A program made the translations under genes and the position numbers. Positions 3,394 to 23,862 of a DNA stretch of 27,148 nt are shown here, piece by piece; within the stretch, counting starts at the first letter, position 1; every line of letters starts with the position of its first letter. The stretch is from a virus. The notes under the pieces are model-generated. The model was not told the origin of the DNA. It did no database searches and saw only the letters and a program-made list of their open reading frames with translations. The DNA lies in the IMG/VR virus record IMGVR_UViG_3300031857_012505, positions 1 to 27,148 of that record; one strand, written 5' to 3'.

Positions 3394-3422
3394 ATTATAT
3401 AGCAAAAAGAAAGGGGCGTCAA
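3394..3422 (-). promoter_or_regulatory. Promoter of the photosynthetic cassette (TTGACG-N17-TATAAT)
   Basis: The -10 is TATAAT (3399-3394) and the -35 TTGACG (3422-3417), with a 17-bp spacer. The predicted start is ~20 bases upstream of the hli ATG. The whole -35 hexamer lies in the loop of the terminator of the preceding carbamoyltransferase gene. Confidence 0.8.
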
Positions 3423-3431
3423 GCCCCCTTT
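3404..3431 (-). terminator. Rho-independent terminator of the 14-gene sugar operon
   Basis: A 7-bp stem (3410-3416 AAAGGGG with 3425-3431 CCCCTTT, plus strand) with an 8-base loop is followed on the minus strand by TTTCTTTTT. It lies 19 bases after the stop of the full-length carbamoyltransferase gene. The loop contains the -35 box of the next promoter. Confidence 0.85.
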
Positions 3432-3449: not shown

Positions 3450-5234
3450 TTATTTGAGAAACAAATAGTCTTCAAGTATTAGAAAATCTAATTCTGTATT
3501 TTCCAATACATAAAAAGCATCTTCAACAGTTGTAAGAATTGGATTACCTTTAATATTGAAAGAGGTGTTTAGAATTACAGCATCATGCCCACGATTATCA
3601 AGTTCAGTCAGAATGTCATAAAACAATTCATGTTGATCTCTGGTTACAGTTTGAAGTCTTGCAGTACCATCAACATGAGTTATCGCAGGTAGTTTTTGCC
3701 GATACTCCTCTTTCACCAATGGAGCAAAAGACATGTATGGAGATGCAAAGGCATTATCAAAGTAAATGTCTTTATCCTCCTCTCGGCAAACAGGACCGAA
3801 AGGTCGGAACCATTCCCTAAACTTAACTTTAGCATTTAGAGTATCTTTCATTTCTGGAATACTTGGATCACAAATGATACTTCGATTACCCAAAGCACGA
3901 GGTCCAACTTCAGAATAACCAATCATTGTGGCACCAATCTTCCCTTCCTTGATTAGATCTACAATTTTAGAAACATTCATATCTACTACCTTATCAATTT
4001 TACTATACTTATCATAATACTCTGGAATTTTTTCTCTGTCAAGAATATCAAATCCACAATAGACTGAAAACTTATCGTTCATAGTTTTATCTATAGAACA
4101 AAAATGTCCATAAGATAATCCATCATCCCCAGGATTAGGGGACACAAAAAGTTTTCTATTTGTCTTGTTCAAATGTTCTGCAACCTTTTGATTGAAGATT
4201 ACATTCAAAGCACATCCACCAGAAAATACTACATCAAAATCATACTTATCAAGGTATGGTTTAATTAATTTCCAACAAAGTTCTTCAAAGACGTGTTGAT
4301 TTGTCGCAGCTAAATCATAACTATGTTTTCCAGATAGACAATTAATGGTTGACTTTAAAAGTGTTGTAATATCATCCAGAGAATTTTGATTATCGGATAA
4401 AAATGCACTTATTACATCTTCATTTTCTTCTCGATTAGATAATAAAGTACTTATCATTTGTTGCCCAACCATTATAGAAACCATGGGATTTTGTGCATCT
4501 GCTGGAGTCATCATGTAATTTTGTTTGATAACATCAATCCATTCTTTTCTAACATTTCCATAAGCAACTAGACCCATCAACTTCCCAGCATTTGAATTGA
4601 GATAATCTGCAGAAACATACTTCTGATTTGAATCAAACATTTTTTCAAGATGATCTGTCTTATTCTTATCCTCAATCTCAGATATCAGTTGAAGTGGGGA
4701 CGCATATTGACCTGGAGTAAACACCATGGCATTAGATGAATTCAATGTCAATAATACATCAACTTTTTGGTCAGATATTTTAAGAATACTATAACCAATA
4801 AGAGGACATTGTTGGGGATTCTTCACTATTCCATAGTGATTATTTTCCAACCCGCCACCATCCAGAGATATTACAAGAGCATCTTTAAATCCACTTTGAT
4901 GATAGGCACCGATACAATGGGAAGTATGATGACCCATTGAAATAAATTTAGAATTGGGAAACAATCTTTTCATCAAAGAAAAGTCTTCGTCAATAACCAC
5001 ACTATAAAGAATATAAGTTGGTTCTTCTTTGAGTTGGAATTTAATATAGTCTAAAAATTTAACCCTATCCTCAAACTTAGAGTCTTGTTCATTTTCTTTT
5101 CTAAATTTTTTAAATGAGCAATGTTTTATCTTAGTAAATCTTTCTAGTTGAAAAATTCTTAATTGATTATTTTTATCTACGCACGTTACTGAACAATCAT
5201 GCCCACCATGAATGGCAAGTATTTTAGAATTCAT
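3450..5234 (-). CDS. Carbamoyltransferase, NodU/CmcH family, full length
   Basis: The 594-aa protein has both family domains. The N-terminal Kae1/TsaD-like domain shows the metal-binding HHxxH at 102-106, SLDGGG, SGGCALN at 338-344 and PNPGDDG at 366-372. The C-terminal domain (about 420-594) carries the family motif GPRALGNRS at 444-452 and FGPVCREE. Family enzymes (NodU, CmcH, TobZ) use ATP and carbamoyl phosphate to make carbamoyl-adenylate and transfer the carbamoyl group to a sugar hydroxyl. It is the last of three tandem paralogs and the only complete one. The start overlaps the previous gene by ATGA, and a terminator follows. Confidence 0.92.
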   Translation of the reverse strand: MNSKILAIHGGHDCSVTCVDKNNQLRIFQLERFTKIKHCSFKKFRKENEQDSKFEDRVKFLDYIKFQLKEEPTYILYSVVIDEDFSLMKRLFPNSKFISMGHHTSHCIGAYHQSGFKDALVISLDGGGLENNHYGIVKNPQQCPLIGYSILKISDQKVDVLLTLNSSNAMVFTPGQYASPLQLISEIEDKNKTDHLEKMFDSNQKYVSADYLNSNAGKLMGLVAYGNVRKEWIDVIKQNYMMTPADAQNPMVSIMVGQQMISTLLSNREENEDVISAFLSDNQNSLDDITTLLKSTINCLSGKHSYDLAATNQHVFEELCWKLIKPYLDKYDFDVVFSGGCALNVIFNQKVAEHLNKTNRKLFVSPNPGDDGLSYGHFCSIDKTMNDKFSVYCGFDILDREKIPEYYDKYSKIDKVVDMNVSKIVDLIKEGKIGATMIGYSEVGPRALGNRSIICDPSIPEMKDTLNAKVKFREWFRPFGPVCREEDKDIYFDNAFASPYMSFAPLVKEEYRQKLPAITHVDGTARLQTVTRDQHELFYDILTELDNRGHDAVILNTSFNIKGNPILTTVEDAFYVLENTELDFLILEDYLFLK

Positions 5235-6442
5235 AACTCAATTACCTTACCATCTTTTTTATATTTTTCATAATACTCTGGAATTTTTTCTCTGTCAAGA
5301 ATATCAAGTCCGCAGTACACTGAAAATTTGTCATCAAAGGTTTTATCTATAGAGCATACATGCCCATAAGATAATCCATCGTCACCAGGATCAGGGGATA
5401 CAAAAAGTTTTCTATTATTCTTACTCAGATATTCCATGATCTTCTGATTTGATAAAACATTTAATGCACATCCACCAGAAAATACAACGTCCAAATCACA
5501 TTCATCAATATAAGGTTGAATCAACTCCCAACAAAGTTCTTCAAAGACATATTGGTTTGTCGCGGCAAGATCATAGCTTTCCTGTCCAGAAAACCAATTT
5601 TGATCTGGACGAACACCAATAATGCTGGCAAAACTAATAAGCAAAGATTTTATATGTTTTGGAGTATGAACTTCATCAGGTCCTGCAAGATAAACCAACT
5701 TAACGGAATTAATCCACTCTTCTCTAACTTTTCCATAAGCAGCAAGACCCATTAGTTTGCCAGCACAAACCTTAGCCATGTTTCTCAATTTCCAGAAAGG
5801 AGAATCATTGAGTTTTATGTTTGAATCAGATTGCTCAAGAAGAGACTTTATAAATTCTGTAATTCTTTTATCTCCCTTATATGGGTCGATTTCGGATATG
5901 GCAGGAACTAAAGCAGTATAACTTCCCGGAGTAAAATTCATGGCACCAGGAAAATTAGTTGCTAATAAAACATCAACCTTTTTATCAAGTATCTTGACAA
6001 TACTATAACTTATTTCTACCCCTTTAGGGTTTTTAGTTATACCATAATGATTATTATCAAAACCCCCACCATCTAATGAGATAACCAATGCATCTTTAAA
6101 TTGACTTTGATGATAGGCACCGATACAGTGAGACGTGTGATGTCCCATCTCAATAAATTTAGATTCTTTAAATTTACTTTTTAAGATATCAAGATAATAT
6201 CGGTTCCCAAAGTAACTATAGAGAACATATTTTGGTTCTTCTTTGAGTTGCGATTTAATATGATCTAGAAAACTTTTTTTCTGTTCTATTCTAATGTCTG
6301 TTGTATAACTATCACATTCAAAATTATCGTGCTTTATCTTAGTAAATCTCTCAAGTTGAAAAATTCTCACTTGATTATTTTTATCTACAAAGGTAGCAGA
6401 ACAGTCATGCCCACCATGAATAGCGAAGATCTTTGAATTCAT
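5231..6442 (-). CDS. Carbamoyltransferase paralog lacking the C-terminal domain
   Basis: The 403-aa product aligns from its first residue (MNSKIFAIHGGHDCS) with the N-terminal domain of the full-length neighbour. It keeps MGHHTSHCIGAYHQS, SLDGGG, SGGCALN and SPDPGDDG. It ends at DGKVIEL, exactly where the C-terminal domain of the full protein begins (about residue 418), so it is a stand-alone Kae1-like domain. The stop overlaps the next start by 4 bases (ATGA). The conserved motifs argue against simple decay. It may need the C-terminal domain of the neighbour in trans, or act as a binding or regulatory paralog. Confidence 0.85.
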   Translation of the reverse strand: MNSKIFAIHGGHDCSATFVDKNNQVRIFQLERFTKIKHDNFECDSYTTDIRIEQKKSFLDHIKSQLKEEPKYVLYSYFGNRYYLDILKSKFKESKFIEMGHHTSHCIGAYHQSQFKDALVISLDGGGFDNNHYGITKNPKGVEISYSIVKILDKKVDVLLATNFPGAMNFTPGSYTALVPAISEIDPYKGDKRITEFIKSLLEQSDSNIKLNDSPFWKLRNMAKVCAGKLMGLAAYGKVREEWINSVKLVYLAGPDEVHTPKHIKSLLISFASIIGVRPDQNWFSGQESYDLAATNQYVFEELCWELIQPYIDECDLDVVFSGGCALNVLSNQKIMEYLSKNNRKLFVSPDPGDDGLSYGHVCSIDKTFDDKFSVYCGLDILDREKIPEYYEKYKKDGKVIEL

Positions 6443-7641
6443 AATCTAATAACTTTACCCCACTTGTGGTATTTATTATAATACTCCAATATCTTATCTC
6501 TATCTAAAATGTCAAGTCCACAATAAACAGAAAACTGATCTTTCATAGTTTTATCAACTGAACAGACATGTCCATAGGATAAACCTTCATCACTTGGTGT
6601 GGGAGATATAAAAAGATTTCGATTTGTTTTACTTAAGTATTGACTGACCTTTTGATTAAAAACAACGTTTAATGCACACCCACCCGAGAACACCACATCA
6701 AAATTATACTGATCAATATAAGGTTTAATTAAATCCCAACAAAGTTCTTCAAAGACATGCTGGTTTGTCGCAGCAAGATCATAACTTTCTTGTCCCGATA
6801 AACAATTTTGTGTCAGTGGTTTACTGATAGATTTAGATAGTCCAACAATAGATGCTTTTAGATTGAATGGTAAATGAATTTCTTTTGGAAGAAGTAGATA
6901 AATGTTTCTTATCGATTCAACCCACTCTTTTCTTATCCTCCCATAAGAAGACAATCCCATTAATTTACCAGCACATATTCTTGCCTTACTTCTCAATCTC
7001 CAAAAAGGAGAATCTTCTTGACTAGTATATTGAATTAAACTATCTTCCTTTTGTGCTTCCTCCATACACTCTGCAATTTCAGCATCAGACTTATATGGAT
7101 CAATTTCAGATATTAAAGGCACGATAGCAGTATATGTACCGGGGGTAAACTTAGGCGAATTTAAAGAGTCCGATGTCAAAAGAACATCAACTTTACCATT
7201 ATCAATTTGGAGAATACTATATGTTATTTCTATTCCATCCAGATCTTTAGATATTCCATAATGCCCATACTCTATACCGCCACCATCCAGAGATATTACA
7301 AGAGCATCTTTAAATCCACTTTGATGATAGGCACCGATACAATGGGAAGTATGATGACCCATTTTTAAAAACTTTGCATTTTTAAAATAAGTTTTTACTA
7401 TTCCCAGATACTCTTCAGAGATATAACTGTATAAAACATACTGGGGTTCTTCCTTTAATTCGGATTTAGCATGTTGTAAGAATTGATGTCTAGTCTTATC
7501 CGTCAAATCTTTATGCTCAAGAGTATCATTCTTAATCTTTGTAAACCTTTCCAATTCAAAAATCCTTAGTTGATTATTTTTATCAACTAAGGTTATTGAA
7601 CAATTATGTCCTCCATGTATGGAAAGAATTTTTGAATTCAT
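6439..7641 (-). CDS. Carbamoyltransferase paralog lacking the C-terminal domain
   Basis: The 400-aa product starts MNSKILSIHGGHNCS and contains the same N-terminal domain motifs (MGHHTSHCIGAYHQS, SLDGGG, SGGCALN). PTPSDEG replaces the usual PxPGDDG loop, the one departure from the conserved motifs. It ends KVIRL at the same domain boundary as the 403-aa paralog and overlaps it by ATGA. An 87-bp stretch (7277-7363) is identical to the full-length copy (4852-4938), while the flanks have diverged. The gene starts one base after the GT25-type gene. Confidence 0.85.
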   Translation of the reverse strand: MNSKILSIHGGHNCSITLVDKNNQLRIFELERFTKIKNDTLEHKDLTDKTRHQFLQHAKSELKEEPQYVLYSYISEEYLGIVKTYFKNAKFLKMGHHTSHCIGAYHQSGFKDALVISLDGGGIEYGHYGISKDLDGIEITYSILQIDNGKVDVLLTSDSLNSPKFTPGTYTAIVPLISEIDPYKSDAEIAECMEEAQKEDSLIQYTSQEDSPFWRLRSKARICAGKLMGLSSYGRIRKEWVESIRNIYLLLPKEIHLPFNLKASIVGLSKSISKPLTQNCLSGQESYDLAATNQHVFEELCWDLIKPYIDQYNFDVVFSGGCALNVVFNQKVSQYLSKTNRNLFISPTPSDEGLSYGHVCSVDKTMKDQFSVYCGLDILDRDKILEYYNKYHKWGKVIRL

Positions 7642-7642
7642 A

Positions 7643-8428
7643 TTATTCTTGACGATCTTCTGTGACTCTCCCCAAATAAGGATCGTAATCCATGAGTTCT
7701 GCTATTCCTATCTCAGGACCACTTTGTTCCCAAAAATTTCTTAGACCATCATGACTTGATCGATGAATGAAGTCAATATGCTCAGGATGAATGGAAGATC
7801 CCAATTCAATTTTATAAAGAAATACTGGAATTGAGAAAGTATTACCCGAATTATAAATTAGATCATCTGCAACAGGACGTGGTTTCACACCATTATCAAG
7901 TTTATACTTATCACCACGAACATGATGCTTCAGAAGTTTTTCAGCATGATGTCTCGTGATCATGTATGCTGCCGTAGAAAAATCATTGACAAATCTCTTA
8001 TGAAGTTTAACATGTAAAGGACCTGTACAAATAATAGCAAGTTGAATCACATCCCAATCATATGGAACCTTTGATGCAAAATCTGTCCAGGTAAAATTCC
8101 AAAATCGAACAGGATCTAAATCTACATCATCTTCCATGATGATTGCATATGGACTATCAGATGTTTCCATCCAATGTTTGATCGCCTTTAGATGGCTAGT
8201 AATACACCCAATCTCACCAGAGGTCATCATCTCTGGGTAACGTCCTTTAATAATATCACTAAGATCATCTTCTCTACCATCATAAGCAGATATACGAGTA
8301 TAGTTTTCTATTTCCCAATACTTCATTTGATCTTCCATATATTGCATCCTTTCTGGTTGTTCATCCAGATTGAGATAATAAATTGGAGCAATATTTTTCA
8401 GTTTAAAAGCAGATTTATTTTTATCCAT
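7643..8428 (-). CDS. Glycosyltransferase family 25
   Basis: The 261-aa protein shows the GT25 (LPS galactosyltransferase) pattern: an N-terminal strand YYLNLDEQPERM, then GEIGCITSHLKAIKHW (71-86), then the nucleotide-sugar/metal motif EDD at 99-101 (IIMEDDVDLDP). It probably adds a hexose to an LPS core or similar acceptor in the cytoplasm. It overlaps the upstream fucosyltransferase-like gene by 8 bases and lies one base before the carbamoyltransferase array, so it belongs to the same operon. Donor sugar and acceptor cannot be read from the sequence. Confidence 0.85.
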   Translation of the reverse strand: MDKNKSAFKLKNIAPIYYLNLDEQPERMQYMEDQMKYWEIENYTRISAYDGREDDLSDIIKGRYPEMMTSGEIGCITSHLKAIKHWMETSDSPYAIIMEDDVDLDPVRFWNFTWTDFASKVPYDWDVIQLAIICTGPLHVKLHKRFVNDFSTAAYMITRHHAEKLLKHHVRGDKYKLDNGVKPRPVADDLIYNSGNTFSIPVFLYKIELGSSIHPEHIDFIHRSSHDGLRNFWEQSGPEIGIAELMDYDPYLGRVTEDRQE

Positions 8429-9281
8429 CTTGATATGATTTTTTTAATAAAATTGCAGTCTGTAAGAATGAACTATTTGATGTCTTCATCATATCAGATT
8501 TAGAGAGAATATACAAGTCGATGATTGCTTGTCTGACACTTTCATCAGACCTTTCAACATTAAATGGATATTCAACTCCGGTGTCATCAACAATTACCGA
8601 TCTCCATTCACCTTCGTCAGTTAATTTCTCAACATAACTGGTCTTTGGATATACGGAAACATTTTCCAATTGATTAAATTTATTTTCAAGTTCTTCATCA
8701 TCAGAACAAACAAAATATTTGGTTTCATTAGTATCAGACACTTGATTAAAAATCTGATCAAAATCTGGTTTATGTGGATCATAGAAGTCAGTGTTTCTCA
8801 AATGAACCCCGACAAAAGATTCTCCAAAATTTGAGTTAATAAAATCATTAGCCTTGTCAACCAGTTGTGAATTAAATTCAATATCACGTATTACATCTAC
8901 AATCTCATCTTCACTGAGGTAAGATAAAAGTGTGTCATTGTTATAAACTATTTTTTGTTTTTCTGTGTTTGCACAAAACTCAGAGAGGTTTTGAAGAGAC
9001 CCGAAACTTTCTGGATGATGTACACTTGTATTGAAATTCAAAAAATTACCATGCATTAAAAATTCATATTCTTGAATATCAGTCTCAAAGTAATGAAGAT
9101 TTTCTTCTATGACATGCAGATCAGTTTTAAACAAGGTACTAAACCTCGATCTACACCAATTTGTAAGTGGCCAAACAACGACTGGTTCGAATCCAGTTTT
9201 TGTACAGATTGAAAGTCCACAAACCAAAGAGTTGAATCTGTTTCCAAATCCACCATCACAATAGATATAAATTTGTTTCAT
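8421..9281 (-). CDS. Fucosyltransferase-like glycosyltransferase (GT-B, NodZ/O-FucT type)
   Basis: The 286-aa protein starts with the glycine loop CDGGFGNRFNSL (8-19) and has HLRNTD at 160-165, the HxR motif that binds the GDP-sugar diphosphate. Near the C-terminus it has SSFLQTA. This combination is typical of the alpha-1,6/O-fucosyltransferase superfamily that uses GDP-fucose. It overlaps the upstream methyltransferase by ATGA. Together with the GDP-mannose epimerase and the GT11-type gene, it points to transfer of an L-fucose- or L-galactose-type sugar. Confidence 0.7.
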   Translation of the reverse strand: MKQIYIYCDGGFGNRFNSLVCGLSICTKTGFEPVVVWPLTNWCRSRFSTLFKTDLHVIEENLHYFETDIQEYEFLMHGNFLNFNTSVHHPESFGSLQNLSEFCANTEKQKIVYNNDTLLSYLSEDEIVDVIRDIEFNSQLVDKANDFINSNFGESFVGVHLRNTDFYDPHKPDFDQIFNQVSDTNETKYFVCSDDEELENKFNQLENVSVYPKTSYVEKLTDEGEWRSVIVDDTGVEYPFNVERSDESVRQAIIDLYILSKSDMMKTSNSSFLQTAILLKKSYQDG

Positions 9282-9865
9282 ACTACCACCACCAATCTAT
9301 CATCAGATTTCTTTCTTAAATCAAGTTCGACAATATACACTTCTTTGGTTGGATAAAGATTAAGAATAAAAGACTTAAGATCTTCTGCATCTTCCTTAGT
9401 CTGAACATCTTCACAGATATAGATTCCACCATCACTAATGTATGGATAATAGTTTTCAAAATTTTTCATCTGTTGACTTAATTGATGATTAGCATCATCT
9501 AAAATAATATCAAAACTTAAGTCATGAAGATGACTCGAAATCAGATTAGGATCTTCACAATTAAAATTAAAAAGAGTAATCCTTTCGTGACTATTAATTT
9601 CCTCCATTACAGCATCACCATCAACTGGTTCATACTGATAGTGCCATTGACCATCTTCCTGAGAAAAATCTTCGATGCCATAAATTTGGGAGTTTTCAAA
9701 ATACTTCTCCCACATTTTCAGAGATCCGCCAAATAGCACTCCAATTTCTAGGACATTTAATTTTTCTGCCCTACGTTCAGAAAAAGTATCTTCATACCAC
9801 CCAATGTAACTATGTGCGGTGCCTTTGTCAGTCTTGAATTGTGTATGAATATCAGTGAGTTTCAT
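9278..9865 (-). CDS. SAM-dependent methyltransferase
   Basis: A 195-aa class I methyltransferase domain: FKTDKGTAHSYIGWY at the N-terminus, the SAM-binding glycine loop VLEIGVLFGGSLKMW, an acidic residue after strand 2 (YGIEDFSQ), and FDIILDDANHQL for strand 4. It resembles macrocin/sugar O-methyltransferases and small cephalosporin-hydroxylase-like proteins. I placed the start at ATG 9865, which has GGAG 8 bases upstream, rather than the longer in-frame start at 9898. It overlaps the upstream gene by 14 bases. Likely substrate, by context: a sugar of the glycan built by this operon. Confidence 0.8.
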   Translation of the reverse strand: MKLTDIHTQFKTDKGTAHSYIGWYEDTFSERRAEKLNVLEIGVLFGGSLKMWEKYFENSQIYGIEDFSQEDGQWHYQYEPVDGDAVMEEINSHERITLFNFNCEDPNLISSHLHDLSFDIILDDANHQLSQQMKNFENYYPYISDGGIYICEDVQTKEDAEDLKSFILNLYPTKEVYIVELDLRKKSDDRLVVVV

Positions 9866-10655
9866 GCTCTTTTCTCCAATCATCGTAGACTTGCTCATTT
9901 AAATAACCATCCAGATCTAAATCATTTTGTGTTTTGTTATGTACAGACATTATTCTTTTTTCAAAATTATCTACTGGATTATCTTTCGTTGATCCATTAC
10001 TTTTAAAATGAACAGCATATGTACCATCAACTAATTCTAAGTCCGCACAAACTTTTAACTCATCCAAATAGCCAATTTTTAAATCGTCCAGGTTGTTTCT
10101 AAGAGTAAGATTCAATGCAGGTGTCTCATGTGGAAAAGGTGTTTTATTTTCAACAAACTCTTCCATCTGAGTAATCCATCTTTGAATAAATCTCTTACAC
10201 TTGGGAATATTATTGAAGATGACAAAACTTGCAATCTCACTAATGTGTATCCCATCACCTCTTGTGTGACCACCAGTGCTCATTGTAGTGACCTGGATAT
10301 CATAGTATGGTGCAATGATGGGTTCTATATCTCTTAGAACACATACATCACTATCAATCATAATAACAGGATGATCAAAATCAATTACATGAAAAAGTTT
10401 ATTAAGAGACTTAGTTTTCATCTGAGTGGCTTTAACCCACCCCTCAGAATGAACACCACTATATTCATCAATACAATCAGTATCTAGAATACTTACCTTA
10501 TCTTTATCCTTGATTGGTTTTTGGTATTCACCAAGTCCACTATCTGCAACATAAATTCTATCTAGATTTTTACAATTTTCTATTGCAGAACTTGTAAAAA
10601 TATCTAGAAAAGGATAATAAGACTTATTCGCAGTTGTAAAAATACTATAGTTCAT
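9852..10655 (-). CDS. Glycosyltransferase, GT-A fold
   Basis: The 267-aa product begins YSIFTTANKSYYPFL and carries a DxD motif (MIDSDVCVLRD, residues 101-103) after a hydrophobic strand, as in GT8-type and related nucleotide-diphospho-sugar transferases. HETPALNLTL follows. Family assignment beyond GT-A is uncertain. It is separated from the upstream methyltransferase-like gene by 6 bases and overlaps the downstream one by 14, so it is an internal operon member. Role: transfer of one sugar of the glycan. Confidence 0.72.
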   Translation of the reverse strand: MNYSIFTTANKSYYPFLDIFTSSAIENCKNLDRIYVADSGLGEYQKPIKDKDKVSILDTDCIDEYSGVHSEGWVKATQMKTKSLNKLFHVIDFDHPVIMIDSDVCVLRDIEPIIAPYYDIQVTTMSTGGHTRGDGIHISEIASFVIFNNIPKCKRFIQRWITQMEEFVENKTPFPHETPALNLTLRNNLDDLKIGYLDELKVCADLELVDGTYAVHFKSNGSTKDNPVDNFEKRIMSVHNKTQNDLDLDGYLNEQVYDDWRKEHETH

Positions 10656-10661
10656 CTGTTA

Positions 10662-11198
10662 TCAAAGTTGAGCCACAATAATATCGTCAGCAATACATCC
10701 ATCCTCAAAAGAAATTTTATAGTCGGGATTAATATCGGTCATTGCTTCAATTAAAAGTTCTTCATCAAGATCTTCTCCCCAGTTACTTCCAGAGAGTCCA
10801 AAGATTCTACGATCATCAACTAACAAAGTGTGAGTTTTGATTGGATGCTCAAGCAGGGCTTCCAATTCAAATGGAAGTGGACACTTGTATTCACCCAGAA
10901 CATCACCATCCCAATGAGCATCTAACCAAAAGGTAGCAGGAGCATCTACTTTTGAAATGACATCTTTAAAAACTTTAAAGGTATCTCCTTCGACAATTTC
11001 TACTAGACCCTCTTCAATTTCTTTTTGAAACTTTTCAGTGTTATACTTTACTTTTTCTGGATCAATTTCAATCGAATAGATTTTTTTGAATCCACACTCT
11101 AGAGCAACTTCAACTGCTTCTCCCCATAGAGTTCCAGTTTCTACAAAAATATCATTCTTATATTTTTGCAATACTTCTTTTTTTAATGTTGTAGACAT
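10662..11198 (-). CDS. Methyltransferase-like protein (class I fold)
   Basis: The 178-aa protein shows FVETGTLWGEAVEVALECG (glycine loop region), YSIEIDPEKV (acidic residue binding the SAM ribose) and ATFWLDAHWDGD (strand 4). This is the layout of small class I SAM methyltransferase-like proteins frequent in phage and bacterial surface-sugar clusters. The glycine loop is ExGTxxG rather than ExGxGxG, so catalytic activity is not certain. It lies 3 bases downstream of the amidotransferase gene. Confidence 0.7.
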   Translation of the reverse strand: MSTTLKKEVLQKYKNDIFVETGTLWGEAVEVALECGFKKIYSIEIDPEKVKYNTEKFQKEIEEGLVEIVEGDTFKVFKDVISKVDAPATFWLDAHWDGDVLGEYKCPLPFELEALLEHPIKTHTLLVDDRRIFGLSGSNWGEDLDEELLIEAMTDINPDYKISFEDGCIADDIIVAQL

Positions 11199-11201
11199 AC
11201 T

Positions 11202-12524
11202 TTAAAATCCTCTTTTAATGTTAGCTTCAAACGGATAGTTTGATTTAGTCAGATATTCATCCAAAACAGATTTGTATTTTGAATTTTTTAATTTGTGATC
11301 CAACCAAAGAAATTCTTGTACGACGTATTTATCCAGATATGGATAGCGGGTTTCAATGCCATATGATCCCGCAACGTACTCTTCCTTTGCCAGATAAGAA
11401 ACCATAGTGCTCCCATAAAAAGATGCCCAAGGGAAAATAGTTGAAATATCTTCTGGAAATAATCCACCAAAATTACTATGAAGAAATTTTTTCTCACCAT
11501 TAAATCCATAGTCTGAAAATATTTCATCAGATCCAGATCCAGAAAGATAAACTTTCTTACCTTGTTTTTTAGCATTATCACAAATCATAGATAAACCACA
11601 AGATCCATTATCATCTTGAAGTCTTCTGTCGAATTCATTATAGTCACTGCTGGAAGAATAAATCCGATATTTAAATTCTTCTACATTTCTATTAATATAA
11701 TCTCTATATTGCCAACGATGATCTGCAAGATATTGACCAGAAGAATTACTATTAAACATGGAGAATCTTTTATCTAAGATTTCCTGATTTTCATTTCCAA
11801 CAACAGCATAAGCTTTATAAGGAACGTTTTGCTTGGTCAATTCACATGCAATAGCACCACTATCATATCCACTGGACAGACCAATAAAAATATTTTCCCT
11901 AAGATTAGATGTACGCTTACGAATAGAATTTTCAAAGGCAACAATCCAATCGGAAAAATCTGTTTTATATTGCTTCAAATCAAAATCATAAACGAAAAAT
12001 TCATTAAGTAATTTTCTCGATTCAAGATCAAAAACTTGAGTAGTATTTGCATCTAGTTTGATTGCAGTTCTAAATCCCAATGCTTTTACTGCAGATTCAT
12101 AAGTTGCAACTGCAAGAGTTTCGCCAATTGAAAACCACAATGGTTTCGTGGCAAATACGTCAGTAGATATAATAAAACGATCGTTCTTAAAGTCAACTAG
12201 AACAATTGCAAATTCACCATCAAGTTCTTTTACAAATTTATCCCCATACTTTTTGTAAAGAGGAATCAAACACTCACCATCAGAAGTATATTCACCAAAC
12301 TCTTGATAATTATAAATCTCACCATTATAGATACAGACAATCTGATCATCATGATCTACAAAAGGTTGCTCGGTAAATTCACCAGTGATGGATAAAATAT
12401 TATGTGTGAATGTATATTCATTAACTTCAATAGTCCTAGTTGCATCAGGACCACGAAATCTCATAAAATGATTTACATGATCAAAATCATCAATATCCTT
12501 ATCAGTAAAAAGAAAACTACACAT
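11202..12524 (-). CDS. asnB: Asparagine-synthase-type glutamine amidotransferase
   Basis: The 440-aa protein has an N-terminal glutaminase domain with the catalytic Cys2 directly after the initiator Met, plus RFRGPDAT (23-30) and YNGEIYNYQE (66-75). A C-terminal ATP-pyrophosphatase domain has the PP-loop as SSGYDSG (217-223) and a second motif SGSGSDEIF. Canonical AsnB is ~550 aa, so this is a compact version. It uses glutamine nitrogen and ATP to amidate a carboxylate. In this operon the acceptor may be a uronic acid made by the neighbouring dehydrogenase rather than aspartate; that is inference. It overlaps the upstream gene by one base. Confidence 0.88.
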   Translation of the reverse strand: MCSFLFTDKDIDDFDHVNHFMRFRGPDATRTIEVNEYTFTHNILSITGEFTEQPFVDHDDQIVCIYNGEIYNYQEFGEYTSDGECLIPLYKKYGDKFVKELDGEFAIVLVDFKNDRFIISTDVFATKPLWFSIGETLAVATYESAVKALGFRTAIKLDANTTQVFDLESRKLLNEFFVYDFDLKQYKTDFSDWIVAFENSIRKRTSNLRENIFIGLSSGYDSGAIACELTKQNVPYKAYAVVGNENQEILDKRFSMFNSNSSGQYLADHRWQYRDYINRNVEEFKYRIYSSSSDYNEFDRRLQDDNGSCGLSMICDNAKKQGKKVYLSGSGSDEIFSDYGFNGEKKFLHSNFGGLFPEDISTIFPWASFYGSTMVSYLAKEEYVAGSYGIETRYPYLDKYVVQEFLWLDHKLKNSKYKSVLDEYLTKSNYPFEANIKRGF

Positions 12525-13225
12525 CAGAATGTTCTACTATGATTTGATACGATTACTTGAGGCATAATTGAATTGCCTCTAATTGTATTAGCAACACCAG
12601 GAAGAATGGATAGATTAATACCGAGTTGATGGCACACAAAAGGAAAACTTAACTGATCTCTGGATGAGAACATACATATTTGTTCCCACCACATTAATCC
12701 CATCTTTTGAGTCAATTCATTATTGCGCTGAAATCTTACGGGAAGTTCATACAATCCATTACCTTCAGGATAGCACATATCTTTATAAAAGGCAAGTTGA
12801 TCATCAATCAAATTTGGATAATCAAATTTTATCTCTTTGATAAACTCACCCTCTTCATAAATGCATTGACGTTGTGGATGTTCAAAGACTGCAACATCAG
12901 TATCTTTAAGGTAGGTTTCTACAAGTTGATTTGGATCTTGATCTAAAATATGTGTGGAATCAATCCAAAAATAGTAATCATATCCTGGGAGAAATGCAAA
13001 AGGAATTATCTTATAAATTTTTGCGTTTCTCCTGTTTGCATAAACTGGGTCCGCAGAAAATTGAATAGCAGAATGTTGATTCCAATATTGAAGATCAGGA
13101 TGCTCAATCCAATCTTTACTATCACTTTCATTATCTACAAAAGCATGATAATCAACGTTATCAAATTTCTTTTGTGGTAAAAGACTATTTGTTCCTATTG
13201 AAGCAGTTATAACAGCAATCTTCAT
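12524..13225 (-). CDS. Glycosyltransferase-like protein (DUF616/TOD1-MUCI70 type)
   Basis: The 233-aa protein begins KIAVITASIGTNSLL. It contains NAKIYKIIPFAFLPGYDYYFWIDST (67-91), where the WIDS segment corresponds to the DxD-like site of the TOD1/MUCI70 (former DUF616) glycosyltransferases, and ends with FSSRDQLSFPFV. These features match that family's shape. Donor and acceptor are unknown. The start overlaps the upstream dehydrogenase by ATGA, and the end overlaps asnB by one base. Confidence 0.65.
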   Translation of the reverse strand: MKIAVITASIGTNSLLPQKKFDNVDYHAFVDNESDSKDWIEHPDLQYWNQHSAIQFSADPVYANRRNAKIYKIIPFAFLPGYDYYFWIDSTHILDQDPNQLVETYLKDTDVAVFEHPQRQCIYEEGEFIKEIKFDYPNLIDDQLAFYKDMCYPEGNGLYELPVRFQRNNELTQKMGLMWWEQICMFSSRDQLSFPFVCHQLGINLSILPGVANTIRGNSIMPQVIVSNHSRTF

Positions 13226-13998
13226 GGTTCAACACTTCTATGCTTATCATTCAGTTCTCTAATAAACTTAATCAAAGGACTTTGACTAAACTTTTCAAGT
13301 TCATAATTATCTTTTGTTAGGCAATGACTTTCCCATCCAAACTTACCATCACTACCAGGAACTTGAGAATGTGAATGACCAATCCTCTCATCAAGTCCAA
13401 CCATTTCAGCAAAATTAGCATAAGTAGATTCACAACCTTGCTGCTGATGTGCTAGGTACATCTCATTAAAGAAAGTAACCCTGAGTGCCAAGAAAGCATT
13501 TTCAGCATACTTGACTAGTGCTGCTGTTTTAATGTCAGTAATTTTAATATCTTTGACATGGGCCAGTCTAGTTTTAAAGATATCTGCAACCTTCATAGCG
13601 GCATCTTCATCACCACCAAGGATAAAGAATTTTTGTCCTTGGAACATTTTAATAGGATTAGTCTTGTTCAAATATTCTGGACTATGCAAAATTTTAATGT
13701 TGGTATATCGATCAACAACATCTGAATAAAATTCAGGAGTAGCAGTTGACTTGCAGCAAACTGGAGTATTAGGTAACATATTCTCATTCAATTCTGATAA
13801 GACAGAATCCAATAGTTGAAAACCTTCTGCTTTTGGTGTATCAACAGAAACAAATACAGCATCAAATTCTTGATTTTTAAAGTCACTAATTTTATTATTA
13901 TTGAATTTTGGATCAATAATAGTTTTCTCACCCTCAGAAAAAATTGATGCTACAGCAGATCCAACGAATCCAAACCCAACAATTAAAACTTTGTACAT
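13222..13998 (-). CDS. UDP-glucose/GDP-mannose 6-dehydrogenase family, short form
   Basis: The 258-aa product has the NAD-binding GFGFVG (8-13), the linker-helix pattern LVKYAENAFLALRVTFFNE (Lys163, Asn167, Asn178-Glu179) and the catalytic cysteine 226 in a divergent GWESHCLTKD (normally GGxCxPKD). Family enzymes oxidise the C6 alcohol of a nucleotide sugar to a uronic acid in two NAD steps. Normal members are ~430 aa; this protein stops soon after the catalytic Cys and lacks the C-terminal UDP-binding domain. Substrate binding therefore must differ or need a partner. The gene lies directly against the GT2-type gene without a gap. Confidence 0.82.
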   Translation of the reverse strand: MYKVLIVGFGFVGSAVASIFSEGEKTIIDPKFNNNKISDFKNQEFDAVFVSVDTPKAEGFQLLDSVLSELNENMLPNTPVCCKSTATPEFYSDVVDRYTNIKILHSPEYLNKTNPIKMFQGQKFFILGGDEDAAMKVADIFKTRLAHVKDIKITDIKTAALVKYAENAFLALRVTFFNEMYLAHQQQGCESTYANFAEMVGLDERIGHSHSQVPGSDGKFGWESHCLTKDNYELEKFSQSPLIKFIRELNDKHRSVEP

Positions 13999-14709
13999 TT
14001 ACTTAACTCCATGCTTTTCTTTACAATATAAAAGTTCACCATTAAATTTTTTCTGGTAATCTTCCTTTAAATACATTGAAGATATTTGATCTTCATGAAC
14101 TCTATTAGACACTAATACATCATGATAATATATGGGATCTCCATATCTTTCCTTAGCATGATAATAAAATTCACAATCCATCATCATAACTAGATTTGGA
14201 TCAAATTTAACTTGGTCGAAAACTTCTCGTCTTGCTGCTAAGACAGAAGGAGAACTAATTGTATTAACACCATTAATTATATCACCATTCCAAGCGGGAT
14301 ACAAATCACCATAAAAAGAATTTCCGTCATTTTTAGTGTGATTACAAGCACACAATAACCATTTGGTATTCTCATCAAAAGCATTATAAATTTTTTCTAG
14401 TGCTTCGTCATCATAGAAAAAATCATCTTGGAACATTACTTTTATAATCTCACCAGAACAATTTTCAATGGCATTATTAGTGTTTGCTGGTCCATTTCCA
14501 CGTTGTTCTTCATTCTTTAAATAAACAATTTTGAATTTTCCCCTATATTGATAGATGACTTTTAACAATTCATTATCAATACTATGATCTGAAATGACAA
14601 CTTCAAAATCTTTAAATGTCTGTATTTCAATAGTTCTGAATAGGTCTTCTAAAAATTCATTTCCTCTTCCCTTAGATTCATAAGTAGGAATAGCAATAGA
14701 CATCTTCAT
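13999..14709 (-). CDS. Glycosyltransferase family 2
   Basis: A 236-aa GT-A enzyme: MSIAIPTYES at the N-terminus, FEVVISDHS for the nucleotide-binding strand, then a DD pair at 95-96 (MFQDDFFYDDEAL) in the metal-binding position. ATG at 14709 overlaps the stop of the fucosyltransferase gene (ATGA). The in-frame TTG at 14721 is less likely. It adds one sugar residue in the cytoplasm, with unknown donor. Confidence 0.85.
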   Translation of the reverse strand: MKMSIAIPTYESKGRGNEFLEDLFRTIEIQTFKDFEVVISDHSIDNELLKVIYQYRGKFKIVYLKNEEQRGNGPANTNNAIENCSGEIIKVMFQDDFFYDDEALEKIYNAFDENTKWLLCACNHTKNDGNSFYGDLYPAWNGDIINGVNTISSPSVLAARREVFDQVKFDPNLVMMMDCEFYYHAKERYGDPIYYHDVLVSNRVHEDQISSMYLKEDYQKKFNGELLYCKEKHGVK

Positions 14710-15509
14710 AAGACCACCCAACCATCACAATAAAGATCTTCTGTATTTTTATCTGCATTGTTAGGACCAAACCAAATAGAAGGTGCAATAACTTTTCCCG
14801 TATTTGCTAACCAAGCCCCCCACCAACTAAATGTACTATTAGCAATAATAAAATCTGAACACTTAGACATTAGGTACAAATCATGGTAAGGACCATTTCC
14901 TTCCGACACAAGAAATCTGTCATCAGAAAAAATTGATTGCTCTTTACACCAAGACGAGTCATCCGAAAAAATTATAACCTGGCGACTATTATGAAACTGC
15001 TGAAGTGCATTTTCATAATATTCAAGTGAAAGATTTGCATGATTGGCAGAGTTAATTAGAAAATCTCCTCTACGAATATGTAAAGCAATTGGATTATCAA
15101 ACTGCTCTACAATATCTACACACTCACCTATATACTTATCTTGAAAGATAAAGTCTTCACGAATCTCATCCTCAACATGCTTGAAATATTTTTCAGTTTG
15201 AAAGTATCCAAAAAGAGATACGTCATCTTGGGGATCTAACTTAAAAAATTTCTCATCAAATTCAAATTTTGTTTCCTGAATATATTTTTCTGATGGTAGA
15301 TTTAACATTCCCCGATAATCTGTTTTTAAAGAAAACACATCAAACAATTCAATTCTCAAACGATTGCCTAGTCCATCATCAACAACTTCTCTATGATCTG
15401 GAATCATAAAGTTGGTTCCAATTTTTTTTGCAATCCCTTTAGTTGCGGCATACTGGAACATTTGGTTTCCCAATTGTCCAATCTTACCCAAATGATTAAA
15501 TCCGATCAT
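14706..15509 (-). CDS. Alpha-1,2-fucosyltransferase, family GT11
   Basis: The 267-aa protein carries all the GT11 hallmarks: GQLGNQMFQYAA (11-22), HIRRGD (144-149) that binds GDP-fucose, IIFSDD.SWC, and ANSTFSWWGAWL close to the C-terminus. The length is normal for the family. It transfers L-fucose (or a similar GDP-L-sugar) in alpha-1,2 linkage onto a galactose-type acceptor. It directly follows the GDP-mannose epimerase with an ATGA overlap, so donor synthesis and transfer are coupled. Confidence 0.92.
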   Translation of the reverse strand: MIGFNHLGKIGQLGNQMFQYAATKGIAKKIGTNFMIPDHREVVDDGLGNRLRIELFDVFSLKTDYRGMLNLPSEKYIQETKFEFDEKFFKLDPQDDVSLFGYFQTEKYFKHVEDEIREDFIFQDKYIGECVDIVEQFDNPIALHIRRGDFLINSANHANLSLEYYENALQQFHNSRQVIIFSDDSSWCKEQSIFSDDRFLVSEGNGPYHDLYLMSKCSDFIIANSTFSWWGAWLANTGKVIAPSIWFGPNNADKNTEDLYCDGWVVL

Positions 15510-16588
15510 TTTTGTATTTGTTCAGAAATCCAGATATAGGTTTTGCGGATACCTTCTTCAAGAGTCTGAGAGTAATCCCAACCAAGTTCTTTACGGATCA
15601 GATCATTATTTGAATTACGACCACGAACTCCAAGAGGACCATCAATATGATTCTTCTCTACAACTTTACCTGCAACTTTAGCAGCAGTATCTACAAGTTG
15701 ATTAATGGTCACCATCTCTTCAGATCCGATGTTGACGGGTCCAATGAAATTAGAATCCATTAAACGACGAGTTGCCTCAATACACTCATCAATGTAAAGG
15801 AATGAACGAGTCTGTTTGCCATCACCCCATACATCAATGGTACCACCTTCTTCGGGAAGATATGCTACCTTACGGCAGATTGCGGCGGGTGCTTTTTCAC
15901 GTCCACCATCCCAGGTTCCTTCAGGTCCAAAGATATTGTGATAACGAGCAACCCGTACAGGAATCCCATAATTACGATGATAAGCGAAAAAGAGTCGCTC
16001 TGAGAAAAGTTTCTCCCAACCATATTCAGAATCTGGGTTAGCAGGATATGCTGATTCTTCACGGCAATCAGGATTATCAGGGTCTAGTTGATTGTGCTCT
16101 GGATACATACATGCAGATCCAGAATAGAAAATCTTAGTAGTGTAATCTAATGCAGGTCTTGCATTTTGTTTCCAAGAGGAATCTTCGCCAAAGGTTTCAT
16201 TCATTTGCCTTTGGGATTCAAGAACATTCAGATTAATGGTTGCAGAATTATGCATGATATCAGCATCATTCTCACCAGTAAAAACGAATCCTGCACCGCC
16301 CATATCAGCAGCAAACTGATAGATTTCATGGAACGGAAGAATATATTGATAGGGAACAGAATTATGAAAATTACCTTGTTCTCCTCTAAATTCAAGGACA
16401 CGACGAACAAAAGTTATGTCTCTCAGATCTCCTTGAATAAATTCATTTGCTTCTGTTTCAGAAAACTCTGGATATTTGAGGTCTACACCGCGAACCCAAT
16501 ATCCTTCAGAACGCAACCTTCTAACCATATGACTTCCGATAAAGCCACCAGCACCAAGCACAAGTGCTGTCTTTTTATATTGACTCAT
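15506..16588 (-). CDS. GDP-mannose 3,5-epimerase-like SDR enzyme
   Basis: The 360-aa extended SDR protein has the NAD motif GAGGFIG (12-18), QFAADMGGAGFVFTGENDAD (91-110, almost diagnostic of GDP-mannose 3,5-epimerase), the catalytic cysteine 160 (SACMYPE) and the YxxxK pair Tyr189/Lys193 (EYGWEK). The plant/bacterial enzyme converts GDP-D-mannose to GDP-L-galactose or GDP-L-gulose. It is the first gene of the 14-gene run and probably supplies its GDP-L-sugar. A promoter (16613-16641) lies just upstream. No gmd/fcl pair is seen, so a GDP-L-galactose-type donor is more likely than de novo GDP-fucose. Confidence 0.88.
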   Translation of the reverse strand: MSQYKKTALVLGAGGFIGSHMVRRLRSEGYWVRGVDLKYPEFSETEANEFIQGDLRDITFVRRVLEFRGEQGNFHNSVPYQYILPFHEIYQFAADMGGAGFVFTGENDADIMHNSATINLNVLESQRQMNETFGEDSSWKQNARPALDYTTKIFYSGSACMYPEHNQLDPDNPDCREESAYPANPDSEYGWEKLFSERLFFAYHRNYGIPVRVARYHNIFGPEGTWDGGREKAPAAICRKVAYLPEEGGTIDVWGDGKQTRSFLYIDECIEATRRLMDSNFIGPVNIGSEEMVTINQLVDTAAKVAGKVVEKNHIDGPLGVRGRNSNNDLIRKELGWDYSQTLEEGIRKTYIWISEQIQK

Positions 16589-16612: not shown

Positions 16613-16641
16613 ATTATACTAAAAAAGGTGGGTTTATGCAA
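16613..16641 (-). promoter_or_regulatory. Promoter of the sugar operon (TTGCAT-N17-TATAAT)
   Basis: A perfect TATAAT (16618-16613) has a degenerate -35 (TTGCAT, 16641-16636) at exactly 17 bp. The -35 again falls in a terminator loop (16634-16640) plus one stem base. No other convincing promoter was seen within the 13-kb run down to 3450, apart from chance AT-rich motifs inside genes. Confidence 0.6.
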
Positions 16642-16650
16642 CCCACCTTT
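16618..16650 (-). terminator. Rho-independent terminator before the sugar operon
   Basis: A perfect 10-bp stem, AAAGGTGGGT with ACCCACCTTT (16624-16633/16641-16650), has a 7-base loop. On the minus strand the stem is followed by a T-run. It would end the transcript coming from the membrane-protein gene at 16790. Confidence 0.85.
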
Positions 16651-22884: not shown

Positions 22885-23862
22885 TCACTTCTCGCCTAAA
22901 CCAACTTGTTTGACTTTGATGCGAGCCTTGTTAAGGATGGAACCAGCAAGAGGAACATAACCCAAGTCATCAGCAATGCCTTGTGCTTTGGTGCTCAGGG
23001 CATAGTTCAGTGCCTCACGGACTGCTTCTGCCTTACCAGGAGCATAACCACTCTTATAGGCAAGAATCCAGGTCAGAGTGGAGATAGGGTATGCTTGAAG
23101 ACCTGCGGGGTTAGGGTCTTCACCAGCAAGGGTCACGGGGTCAATCTTAATACCATTCAGAGCAGCAGCACCAGTCACAGCAGAAGGTCCAACAAACTTA
23201 CCTGCTTTATTCTGGAGGACAGCAGCTTGGAGTTTATTTACGCGAACGAAACCAGTGTTCACATAACCGATAGCACCAGGAGTGTTCTTGATGGTTCCAG
23301 CAACACCCTCATTACCTTTCGCACCGACACCAACTGGCCAGTTCACGGACTTACCAACACCAGGAGTCCAACCACCGAACGCATCCAGTGAGTTAGTGAA
23401 GGCATAGGTGGTTCCAGAACCATCAGAACGATGAACCGTCACCATCTTACCAGCAGCACAACCAACTTCCTTCCAGTCCTTGATGTGTCCCATAAAGATA
23501 TGGACAACTTGTTTCTGGGTCAGTTTCAGTTTACAACCAGGCTTGTTATAAGCAATAGCAATGGTTCCACCAACCATAGGAATTTGGATTACACCACGCT
23601 TGACCTTTGCTGCTTCCTTTGCCTTGATAGGTTCATCAGTAGCACCAAACTCAACAGTTCCAGCAACGAACTGACGAACACCAGCACCAGAACCAACGGA
23701 CTGATAGTTTACCTTTTCGCCAGTGGATGCTGAATAATCTTGGAACCAGCGTTGATAGATGGGGGCAGGGAAGGTAGCACCTGCTCCGTTAATAGCAGGT
23801 CCAGCAAATGCAGCAGTAGGAGCAAGAGCAAGACCGATTGTAGCAATATGTTTGAGTTTCAT
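22885..23862 (-). CDS. pstS: Phosphate-binding protein PstS
   Basis: The 325-aa periplasmic phosphate-binding protein of the Pst ABC transporter. A signal peptide occupies residues 1-20 (LALAPTAAFA; no lipobox cysteine), followed by NGAGATFPAPIYQRW, SVGSGAGVRQF, FGATDEP and HRSDGSGTTYAFT (the phosphate-binding loop), then GVGAKGNEGVAGT. The full family length is kept. Phage pstS genes raise phosphate uptake in P-limited hosts. A Pho-box-like direct repeat lies 14 bases upstream of the ATG. Flanked by its own terminator and downstream of the porin gene, it is probably transcribed alone. Confidence 0.97.
   Translation of the reverse strand: MKLKHIATIGLALAPTAAFAGPAINGAGATFPAPIYQRWFQDYSASTGEKVNYQSVGSGAGVRQFVAGTVEFGATDEPIKAKEAAKVKRGVIQIPMVGGTIAIAYNKPGCKLKLTQKQVVHIFMGHIKDWKEVGCAAGKMVTVHRSDGSGTTYAFTNSLDAFGGWTPGVGKSVNWPVGVGAKGNEGVAGTIKNTPGAIGYVNTGFVRVNKLQAAVLQNKAGKFVGPSAVTGAAALNGIKIDPVTLAGEDPNPAGLQAYPISTLTWILAYKSGYAPGKAEAVREALNYALSTKAQGIADDLGYVPLAGSILNKARIKVKQVGLGEK

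Follow-up and report, generated by a model that had tools for sequence, protein, structure and literature searches.

The virus record IMGVR_UViG_3300031857_012505, analysed as a whole over its 27,148 bases (the window), carries three adjacent genes that are, judged by their sequences, paralogs of the class III O-carbamoyltransferases of the NodU family (Table 1). The genes lie on the minus strand and overlap at both junctions by ATGA, as the original prediction had stated. The short genes 1 and 2 are transcribed first and the complete gene 3 last, closing a nearly gapless minus-strand cassette of 14 genes that runs from position 16588 to 3450. None of the three open reading frames (ORFs) has an internal stop.

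In class III enzymes a YrdC-like domain produces carbamoyl-AMP from carbamoyl phosphate and ATP, and a Kae1-like domain carries out the transfer (PMC9633730, PMC9654439). The Kae1-like domain (Carbam_trans_N, PF02543; N below) is found above the Pfam cut-off in all three proteins, with an E-value of 5.6e-18 in gene 3, and the YrdC-like domain (Carbam_trans_C, PF16861; C below) in gene 3 only (E 1.7e-58). Gene 3 therefore has both halves of a class III enzyme: a Kae1-like domain with the base histidine and the HHxxH...D...D metal site, and a YrdC-like domain with GPRALG, K/RE and NTS motifs whose K471, invariant in the alignment examined, is by alignment the likely counterpart of TobZ K443. Genes 1 and 2 have the Kae1-like half and no PF16861 match on the same chain. 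Their products are 59% and 62% identical, respectively, to the 594-amino-acid protein and stop at one alignment column, beside gene 3 residue 416 and about 9 residues ahead of the start of the Pfam C-domain match. The motifs HHxxH, DGGG and SGGCALN are identical in the three proteins, while GPRALGNRS occurs in gene 3 only. These data bear out what had been predicted, namely that the 594-residue protein alone has the C-terminal domain with GPRALGNRS and that the two short proteins, with intact frames and conserved HHxxH and SGGCALN, end at the same residue near the domain boundary, having kept the Kae1-like and lost the YrdC-like domain.

Two other identities of the locus were rejected. Aspartate carbamoyltransferases were discarded because Carbam_trans_N, Carbam_trans_C and HypF_C_2 are the only Pfam matches at E 0.001; a scan with NCBIfam gave no model above cut-off. 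A frameshift or assembly error was discarded because the arrangement recurs in a diverged contig, L002, and because both short genes end at the same column.

The transfer site of the short proteins appears complete. Genes 1, 2 and 3 all keep H12, H102, H106, D125, D370 and the GG...N loop (gene 3 numbering). The last four of these residues correspond by spacing and alignment to the iron ligands H133, H137, D156 and D333 of GdmN (PMC9633730), the 4- and 19-residue spacings of H133, H137 and D156 being the same in gene 3, and from its position and invariance H12 would be the general base. AMP, ATP or carbamoyl-AMP in GdmN crystals is found in the Kae1-like domain only (PMC9633730), and a stand-alone module should thus have the donor site. 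Conservation in 58 fused relatives reaches at least 90% at 44 positions; at only one of these, 213, do both short proteins deviate, and gene 3 deviates there as well. Divergence among the three proteins is concentrated outside the catalytic core, with identities of 95-100% at positions 105-124 and of 0-28% in 251-294, a distribution that fits different acceptors.

AlphaFold2 models of genes 1 and 3, built from alignments of the window and viral-contig sequences, agree with this picture. Gene 3 is predicted as a confident complete enzyme (predicted local distance difference test, pLDDT, 88.0; predicted template modelling score, pTM, 0.90) that aligns to NovN with Z 33.9 and to TobZ with Z 32.1-33.2 over 490-494 residues, the range for NovN, GdmN and TobZ being Z 32.1-33.9. 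Gene 1 is predicted as a confident Kae1-like domain with a loose tail (pLDDT 86.6, pTM 0.85). It aligns to NovN (Z 25.5), TobZ (Z 23.5-23.9) and GdmN entries (Z 19.4-24.6), all carbamoyltransferases, which rank higher than TsaD and Kae1 (Z ~18 and below). The best PDB matches by sequence are TobZ (E 0.0034) and NovN (E 0.0091). Of 13 BFVD matches at E 0.001, one is the N-only protein of phage S-RIM44 and many others are distant Hsp70-like proteins.

Two contigs carry the same locus. Over 3450-9281 the sequence of L001 does not differ from that of the window. L002 comes from a different metagenome; its three genes match those of the window in length, counted from the same ATG, and in their overlaps, and their products are 91.2, 97.3 and 95.6% identical to those of genes 1, 2 and 3. 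By NG86, genes 1, 2 and 3 have ratios of nonsynonymous to synonymous substitution rates (dN/dS) of 0.095, 0.035 and 0.031 when the window is compared with L002; YN00 gives 0.068, 0.031 and 0.020. The short genes are under purifying selection; the proposed dN/dS check yielded 0.03-0.10, far from neutrality, and neither the broken frames nor the ligand loss that would have spoken against function was seen, the frames being intact in L002 as well. Genes 1 and 2 of L002 (8001-10411) share a tract of 120 bases that is exactly identical, as compared to 84% identity between the window copies. This tract results from gene conversion, which slightly blurs the dN/dS of gene 1. Each of the three genes nevertheless keeps its own version between window and L002.

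The stand-alone form is not confined to this locus. Phage and contig sequences were sampled by similarity and not at random, one scan keeping the best 80 of 575 relatives, and domains were classified in 195 sequences, the window and 194 loci of which some overlap. In the phage records examined, 60 whole stand-alone Kae1-like ORFs of full domain length form 27 clusters at 90% identity, a count that excludes seven N-only ORFs running off the end of the sequence retrieved; the conserved stand-alone forms for which a search had been suggested thus exist. The base, metal and GG...N residues are retained in 27 of the 27 clusters and K218 in 26. In another clade, 51 positions are at least 85% conserved in 44 fused enzymes, and none of them drops to half or less in 24 stand-alone clusters. 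Other stand-alone genes also end repeatedly near the domain boundary, and PHROGs holds a separate family of C-only length (phrog_20469, 181 positions).

Stand-alone genes are regularly accompanied by a donor-making domain. Among the 37 records with a whole stand-alone gene, 35 also encode a C domain, 34 of them in the fetched stretch and one (L042) elsewhere on the contig. No C domain was found in the two others, the fragments L040 and L041 of 6.6 and 15 kb, nor in L049, L064 and L107 (4.9-12.6 kb), whose only stand-alone ORFs are cut off. Nine records combine two stand-alone genes with a single C domain. The order N-N-fused is found in the window, L001 and L002, and fused-N-N in L036; in L043 the fused gene is followed by N-N, with one C domain in 74 kb. 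Four loci (L101, L102, L103 and L106) have the order N-C-gap-N, with one C-only and two N-only genes: a YrdC-like-only gene of 184 amino acids overlaps a Kae1-like-only gene of 316, and a second Kae1-like-only gene, of 342, follows ~850 bases on. This type is the cleanest natural one-donor, two-transferase locus observed.

Similar genes occur in named phages. S-SSM7 has a stand-alone Kae1-like gene of 369 amino acids ('Nol', SSSM7_123) near a fused enzyme of 600, and Sf-FS3 one of 385 amino acids (Sf-FS3_107) near a fused enzyme of 598. In S-RIM44 (_235/_236) and Sf-FP1 (218/219) a YrdC-like gene of ~180 amino acids overlaps a Kae1-like gene, and no fused enzyme was found in either record. S-SCSM1 (genes 194-197, L020:1603-5185) has tandem C-N-C-N split pairs; the fused enzyme that this phage also encodes lies elsewhere. 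Separate C-only and N-only genes are also paired in six contigs (L093, L094, L096, L098, L099 and L105). L179 (145 and 376 amino acids) and P-SSM5 (open frames of 406 and 170 amino acids) are probable frameshifts and were not counted as stand-alone. Three fused carbamoyltransferases carry large extra parts: L025:2692-4989, L024:2986-5286 and L026:2723-5242, of 765, 766 and 839 amino acids.

In the N-domain trees genes 1 and 2 are sisters, with support of 98/94 in a smaller tree and 97/79 in a wider one made of the 27 stand-alone clusters and 26 fused rows picked by hand out of 119. Gene 3 is placed next to this pair and fused genes such as L009 lie outside. Given this branching order, the simplest history for the short genes of the window is that a fused gene was duplicated, one copy lost the C domain and a second duplication followed. 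These events would have preceded the separation from L002 and would be independent of those behind the other stand-alone genes. In the wider tree the stand-alone state must have been gained or lost six times, five of these changes being forced by well-supported branches; the smaller tree forces two. The changes concern the window pair; L185; L093; the second N of S-SCSM1; a mostly split group (S-RIM44, Sf-FP1, the first N of S-SCSM1 and the L102 pair); and 17 clusters, S-SSM7 and Sf-FS3 among them, that form a well-supported group. Long branches make the single placements of L193, L020 second N, L023, L014 and L102 first N unsure, and the C-only rows are not resolved as one group. On these trees the stand-alone form has arisen repeatedly, through changes that may be gains or losses.

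The two short genes keep the transfer site and have no donor-making domain, and gene 3 is the nearest source of donor; for these reasons genes 1 and 2 are read as transferases supplied in trans. A full-length class III gene would have been duplicated, the YrdC-like domain of one copy would have been lost at the domain boundary, and a second duplication, of the short copy, would have given two Kae1-like modules that work in transfer. The YrdC-like domain of gene 3 would make carbamoyl-AMP from carbamoyl phosphate and ATP, and the short paralogs would obtain it by docking on this domain or from solution. Each of them might then carbamoylate hydroxyl groups of its own on the cassette's oligosaccharide product, a glycan that probably belongs to the virion or to the surface of the infected cell. 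We hold this account, from truncated duplicates to separate acceptors, to be on balance probable. What is observed is how the genes are built, that two of them lack a domain yet keep intact active sites, that they are under purifying selection, and that the form recurs and is associated with a donor domain; the fold of genes 1 and 3 is predicted, and supply in trans, distinct acceptors and the glycan target are inferred. The earlier suggestion that one complete enzyme might feed several transfer paralogs gains from the one-donor, two-transferase records and the split pairs.

Several observations weigh against this reading. A channel for carbamoyl-AMP joins the two domains in TobZ and HypF (PMC9654439), so that the donor may pass poorly between separate chains if their domains do not dock. 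A truncated O-carbamoyltransferase of a cyanobacterial toxin cluster, without the C-terminal motif, was judged most probably inactive (PMC3037375); the available text of that source mentions no neighbouring complete copy. The NG86 value of gene 1 (0.095) exceeds those of nine neighbour genes compared between L001 and L002 (0.038-0.076), making gene 1 the least constrained of the genes compared, yet far below 1. In other phages, two of ten stand-alone pairs, which differ at only 16 and 19 bases, have dN/dS ~0.5; the remaining eight lie at 0.05-0.27.

The alternative that survives best is that the short paralogs are structural or regulatory partners and not catalysts, forming hetero-oligomers with gene 3 and shaping its pocket. 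Precedents are TsaB, a TsaD paralog required for complex formation (PMC9654439), and GdmN, a homodimer whose acceptor is bound by a loop from the partner subunit (PMC9633730). TsaB, however, has a truncated C-lobe without the nucleotide/metal site (PMC9654439), a loss that is not seen in genes 1 and 2 nor in any stand-alone cluster, all of which keep the ligands, and the split pairs of S-RIM44 and Sf-FP1 need their N-only protein as the catalyst. We regard a mere partner role as unlikely.

Somewhat less credit is given to redundancy, in which the copies would act on the same acceptor and raise dosage or transfer capacity. The exchange of sequence between genes 1 and 2, seen in the L002 tract, is in its favour, while the strong differences among the three non-core regions, with each version maintained between window and L002, make it improbable. 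Ranked just behind redundancy is the use by the short proteins of an acyl-adenylate or carbamoyl-AMP from the host or from another phage enzyme. The stand-alone TsaD takes threonylcarbamoyl-AMP made by a separate TsaC (PMC9654439) and the gene 1 model does align to TsaD, at Z ~18, but a Carbam_trans_C domain is present in nearly every record with a stand-alone gene (35/37) and the trees place the short genes as sisters of a fused carbamoyltransferase. Decaying or broken duplicates, which the inactive verdict on the truncated toxin-cluster enzyme (PMC3037375) might suggest, are very improbable: the frames are intact in three contigs, of which two do not differ in the part compared, dN/dS is 0.035-0.095, and other stand-alone genes repeatedly end near the domain boundary.

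The eleven genes upstream of the carbamoyltransferases have the same direction and likely make the acceptor glycan. They code for a sugar-nucleotide epimerase, GT11 and GT2 glycosyltransferases, a UDPG/GDPM dehydrogenase, a TOD1/MUCI70-like protein, an asparagine-synthase-like amidotransferase, a protein without Pfam match, a nucleotide-diphospho-sugar transferase, a methyltransferase-24-like protein (just below cut-off), an O-FucT-like protein (below cut-off) and a GT25 protein. The acceptor is probably a sugar made by the cassette. The UDPG/GDPM dehydrogenase-like gene (13222-13998) codes for only 258 amino acids, which Pfam matches to a partial NAD-binding and the central domain, without the C-terminal one. 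Terminator-like hairpins bracket the cassette; the window has 17 terminator-like sites as compared to 8.3 (standard deviation 3.1) in shuffled sequences, and its 81 promoter-like sites are not above the 75.3 of shuffles.

Table 1. Features of the carbamoyltransferase locus and of the one-donor, two-transferase loci
Feature	Sequence	Coordinates	Strand	Description
Gene 1	Window	6439..7641	-	400 amino acids (P0003); stand-alone Kae1-like domain, without YrdC-like domain
Gene 2	Window	5231..6442	-	403 amino acids (P0002); stand-alone Kae1-like domain; ATGA overlap with gene 1
Gene 3	Window	3450..5234	-	594 amino acids (P0001); Kae1-like and YrdC-like domains; ATGA overlap with gene 2
Carbam_trans_C (YrdC-like, donor-making) domain	Window	3456..3959	-	E 1.9e-61; sole one in the record
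Eleven upstream genes	Window	7643..16588	-	Likely makers of the acceptor glycan; from Pfam and ORF list
Terminator-like hairpin	Window	16624..16650	-	Just upstream of the cassette
Terminator-like hairpin	Window	3410..3430	-	20 bases past the gene 3 stop
N-C-gap-N locus	L101	3655-7031		One C-only and two N-only genes
N-C-gap-N locus	L102	2244-5620		One C-only and two N-only genes
N-C-gap-N locus	L103	4998-8374		One C-only and two N-only genes
N-C-gap-N locus	L106	2042-5418		One C-only and two N-only genes

Elsewhere the window has plastocyanin-like, 2Fe-2S ferredoxin and redoxin genes and seven predicted tRNAs, as well as an ORF at 22885-23862 that we take, by eye, to be PstS-like. A porin is annotated in the region of its best phage match. 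Its DNA matches 46 phage records, 35 of them named Synechococcus, and neighbour genes and matches together point to a relative of the T4-like cyanophages.

A bacterial sample restricted to Pseudomonadota and searched for Carbam_trans_N only gave matches at E 1e-10 in 103 of 249 genomes. Among the 150 matches listed from a longer list and counted by eye, 147 lie in frames of at least 545 amino acids, long enough for both domains, and three in frames below 450, two of which are within 100 bases of a contig start. N-then-C split pairs were seen in contigs of metagenome-assembled genomes labelled Maricaulis (L201:80-1613) and Sphingobacteriales (L203:2406-4224); these may be viral or frameshifted.

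Gene 3 shares both domains, motifs and predicted fold with the class III enzymes TobZ, GdmN, NovN and VtdB; genes 1 and 2 have the Kae1-like half in common with these enzymes, ligands included. The two short genes differ by the missing YrdC-like domain from the characterised enzymes, which have both domains on one chain (PMC9633730). S-SSM7, Sf-FS3, S-RIM44, Sf-FP1 and S-SCSM1 likewise have Kae1-like genes that stand alone, close to either a fused enzyme or a distinct YrdC-like gene, but these belong to another part of the N-domain tree and none of the five phages has the N-N-fused order. A broader likeness is found in the threonylcarbamoyladenosine (t6A) system of TsaC (YrdC), TsaD (Kae1) and TsaB, where the donor-making and transfer domains are on separate proteins and a Kae1-family paralog stands beside the catalytic one (PMC9654439); substrates and sequence family differ, and the window genes show no active-site loss of the TsaB kind. 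The WapO-type lipopolysaccharide carbamoyltransferase of Pseudomonas, compared here by its description, is also putative and belongs to a surface glycan pathway, with the carbamoyl on inner-core heptose (PMC8005017). Annotations of heptose/carbohydrate kinase, phosphoheptose isomerase or heptose epimerase adjoin carbamoyltransferases in L016, L018, L026, L027 and L034, neighbours that suggest heptose as an acceptor within this part of the family.

The open-licence literature of PubMed Central yielded no description of class III carbamoyltransferases in stand-alone or split form, in line with the original prediction that no such system is described; the form itself is not unique and has gone unremarked in deposited genomes. 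Sullivan et al. (2010) list a three-copy carbamoyltransferase entry of 1803, 1536 and 1575 base pairs (PMC3037559). The 1803-bp gene fits S-SSM7, whose 1110-bp stand-alone gene is absent from the entry as given there, and the word 'carbamoyl' does not occur in the available text of the S-SCSM1 paper. Cyanophage carbamoyltransferases have been taken as enzymes of pyrimidine synthesis (PMC9146016, PMC10436341). The frame of MS29, the one of the two phages concerned that was covered here, matches O-carbamoyltransferase domains, and the pyrimidine reading is called into question.

More tentatively than for the window alone, we propose that marine phages have, more than once, split a two-step O-carbamoyltransferase into interchangeable modules, one YrdC-like donor serving several Kae1-like transferases that act on different hydroxyls. 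If this is true, the stand-alone transfer halves would show that the channel between the two domains is dispensable or can form anew between chains, and glycan carbamoylation would have a division of labour like that of t6A synthesis. A phage could then extend its carbamoylation pattern by copying the transfer half only, and stand-alone halves would be ready parts for making new carbamoylated sugars. These genes point to carbamoylated glycans as a phage trait worth seeking.

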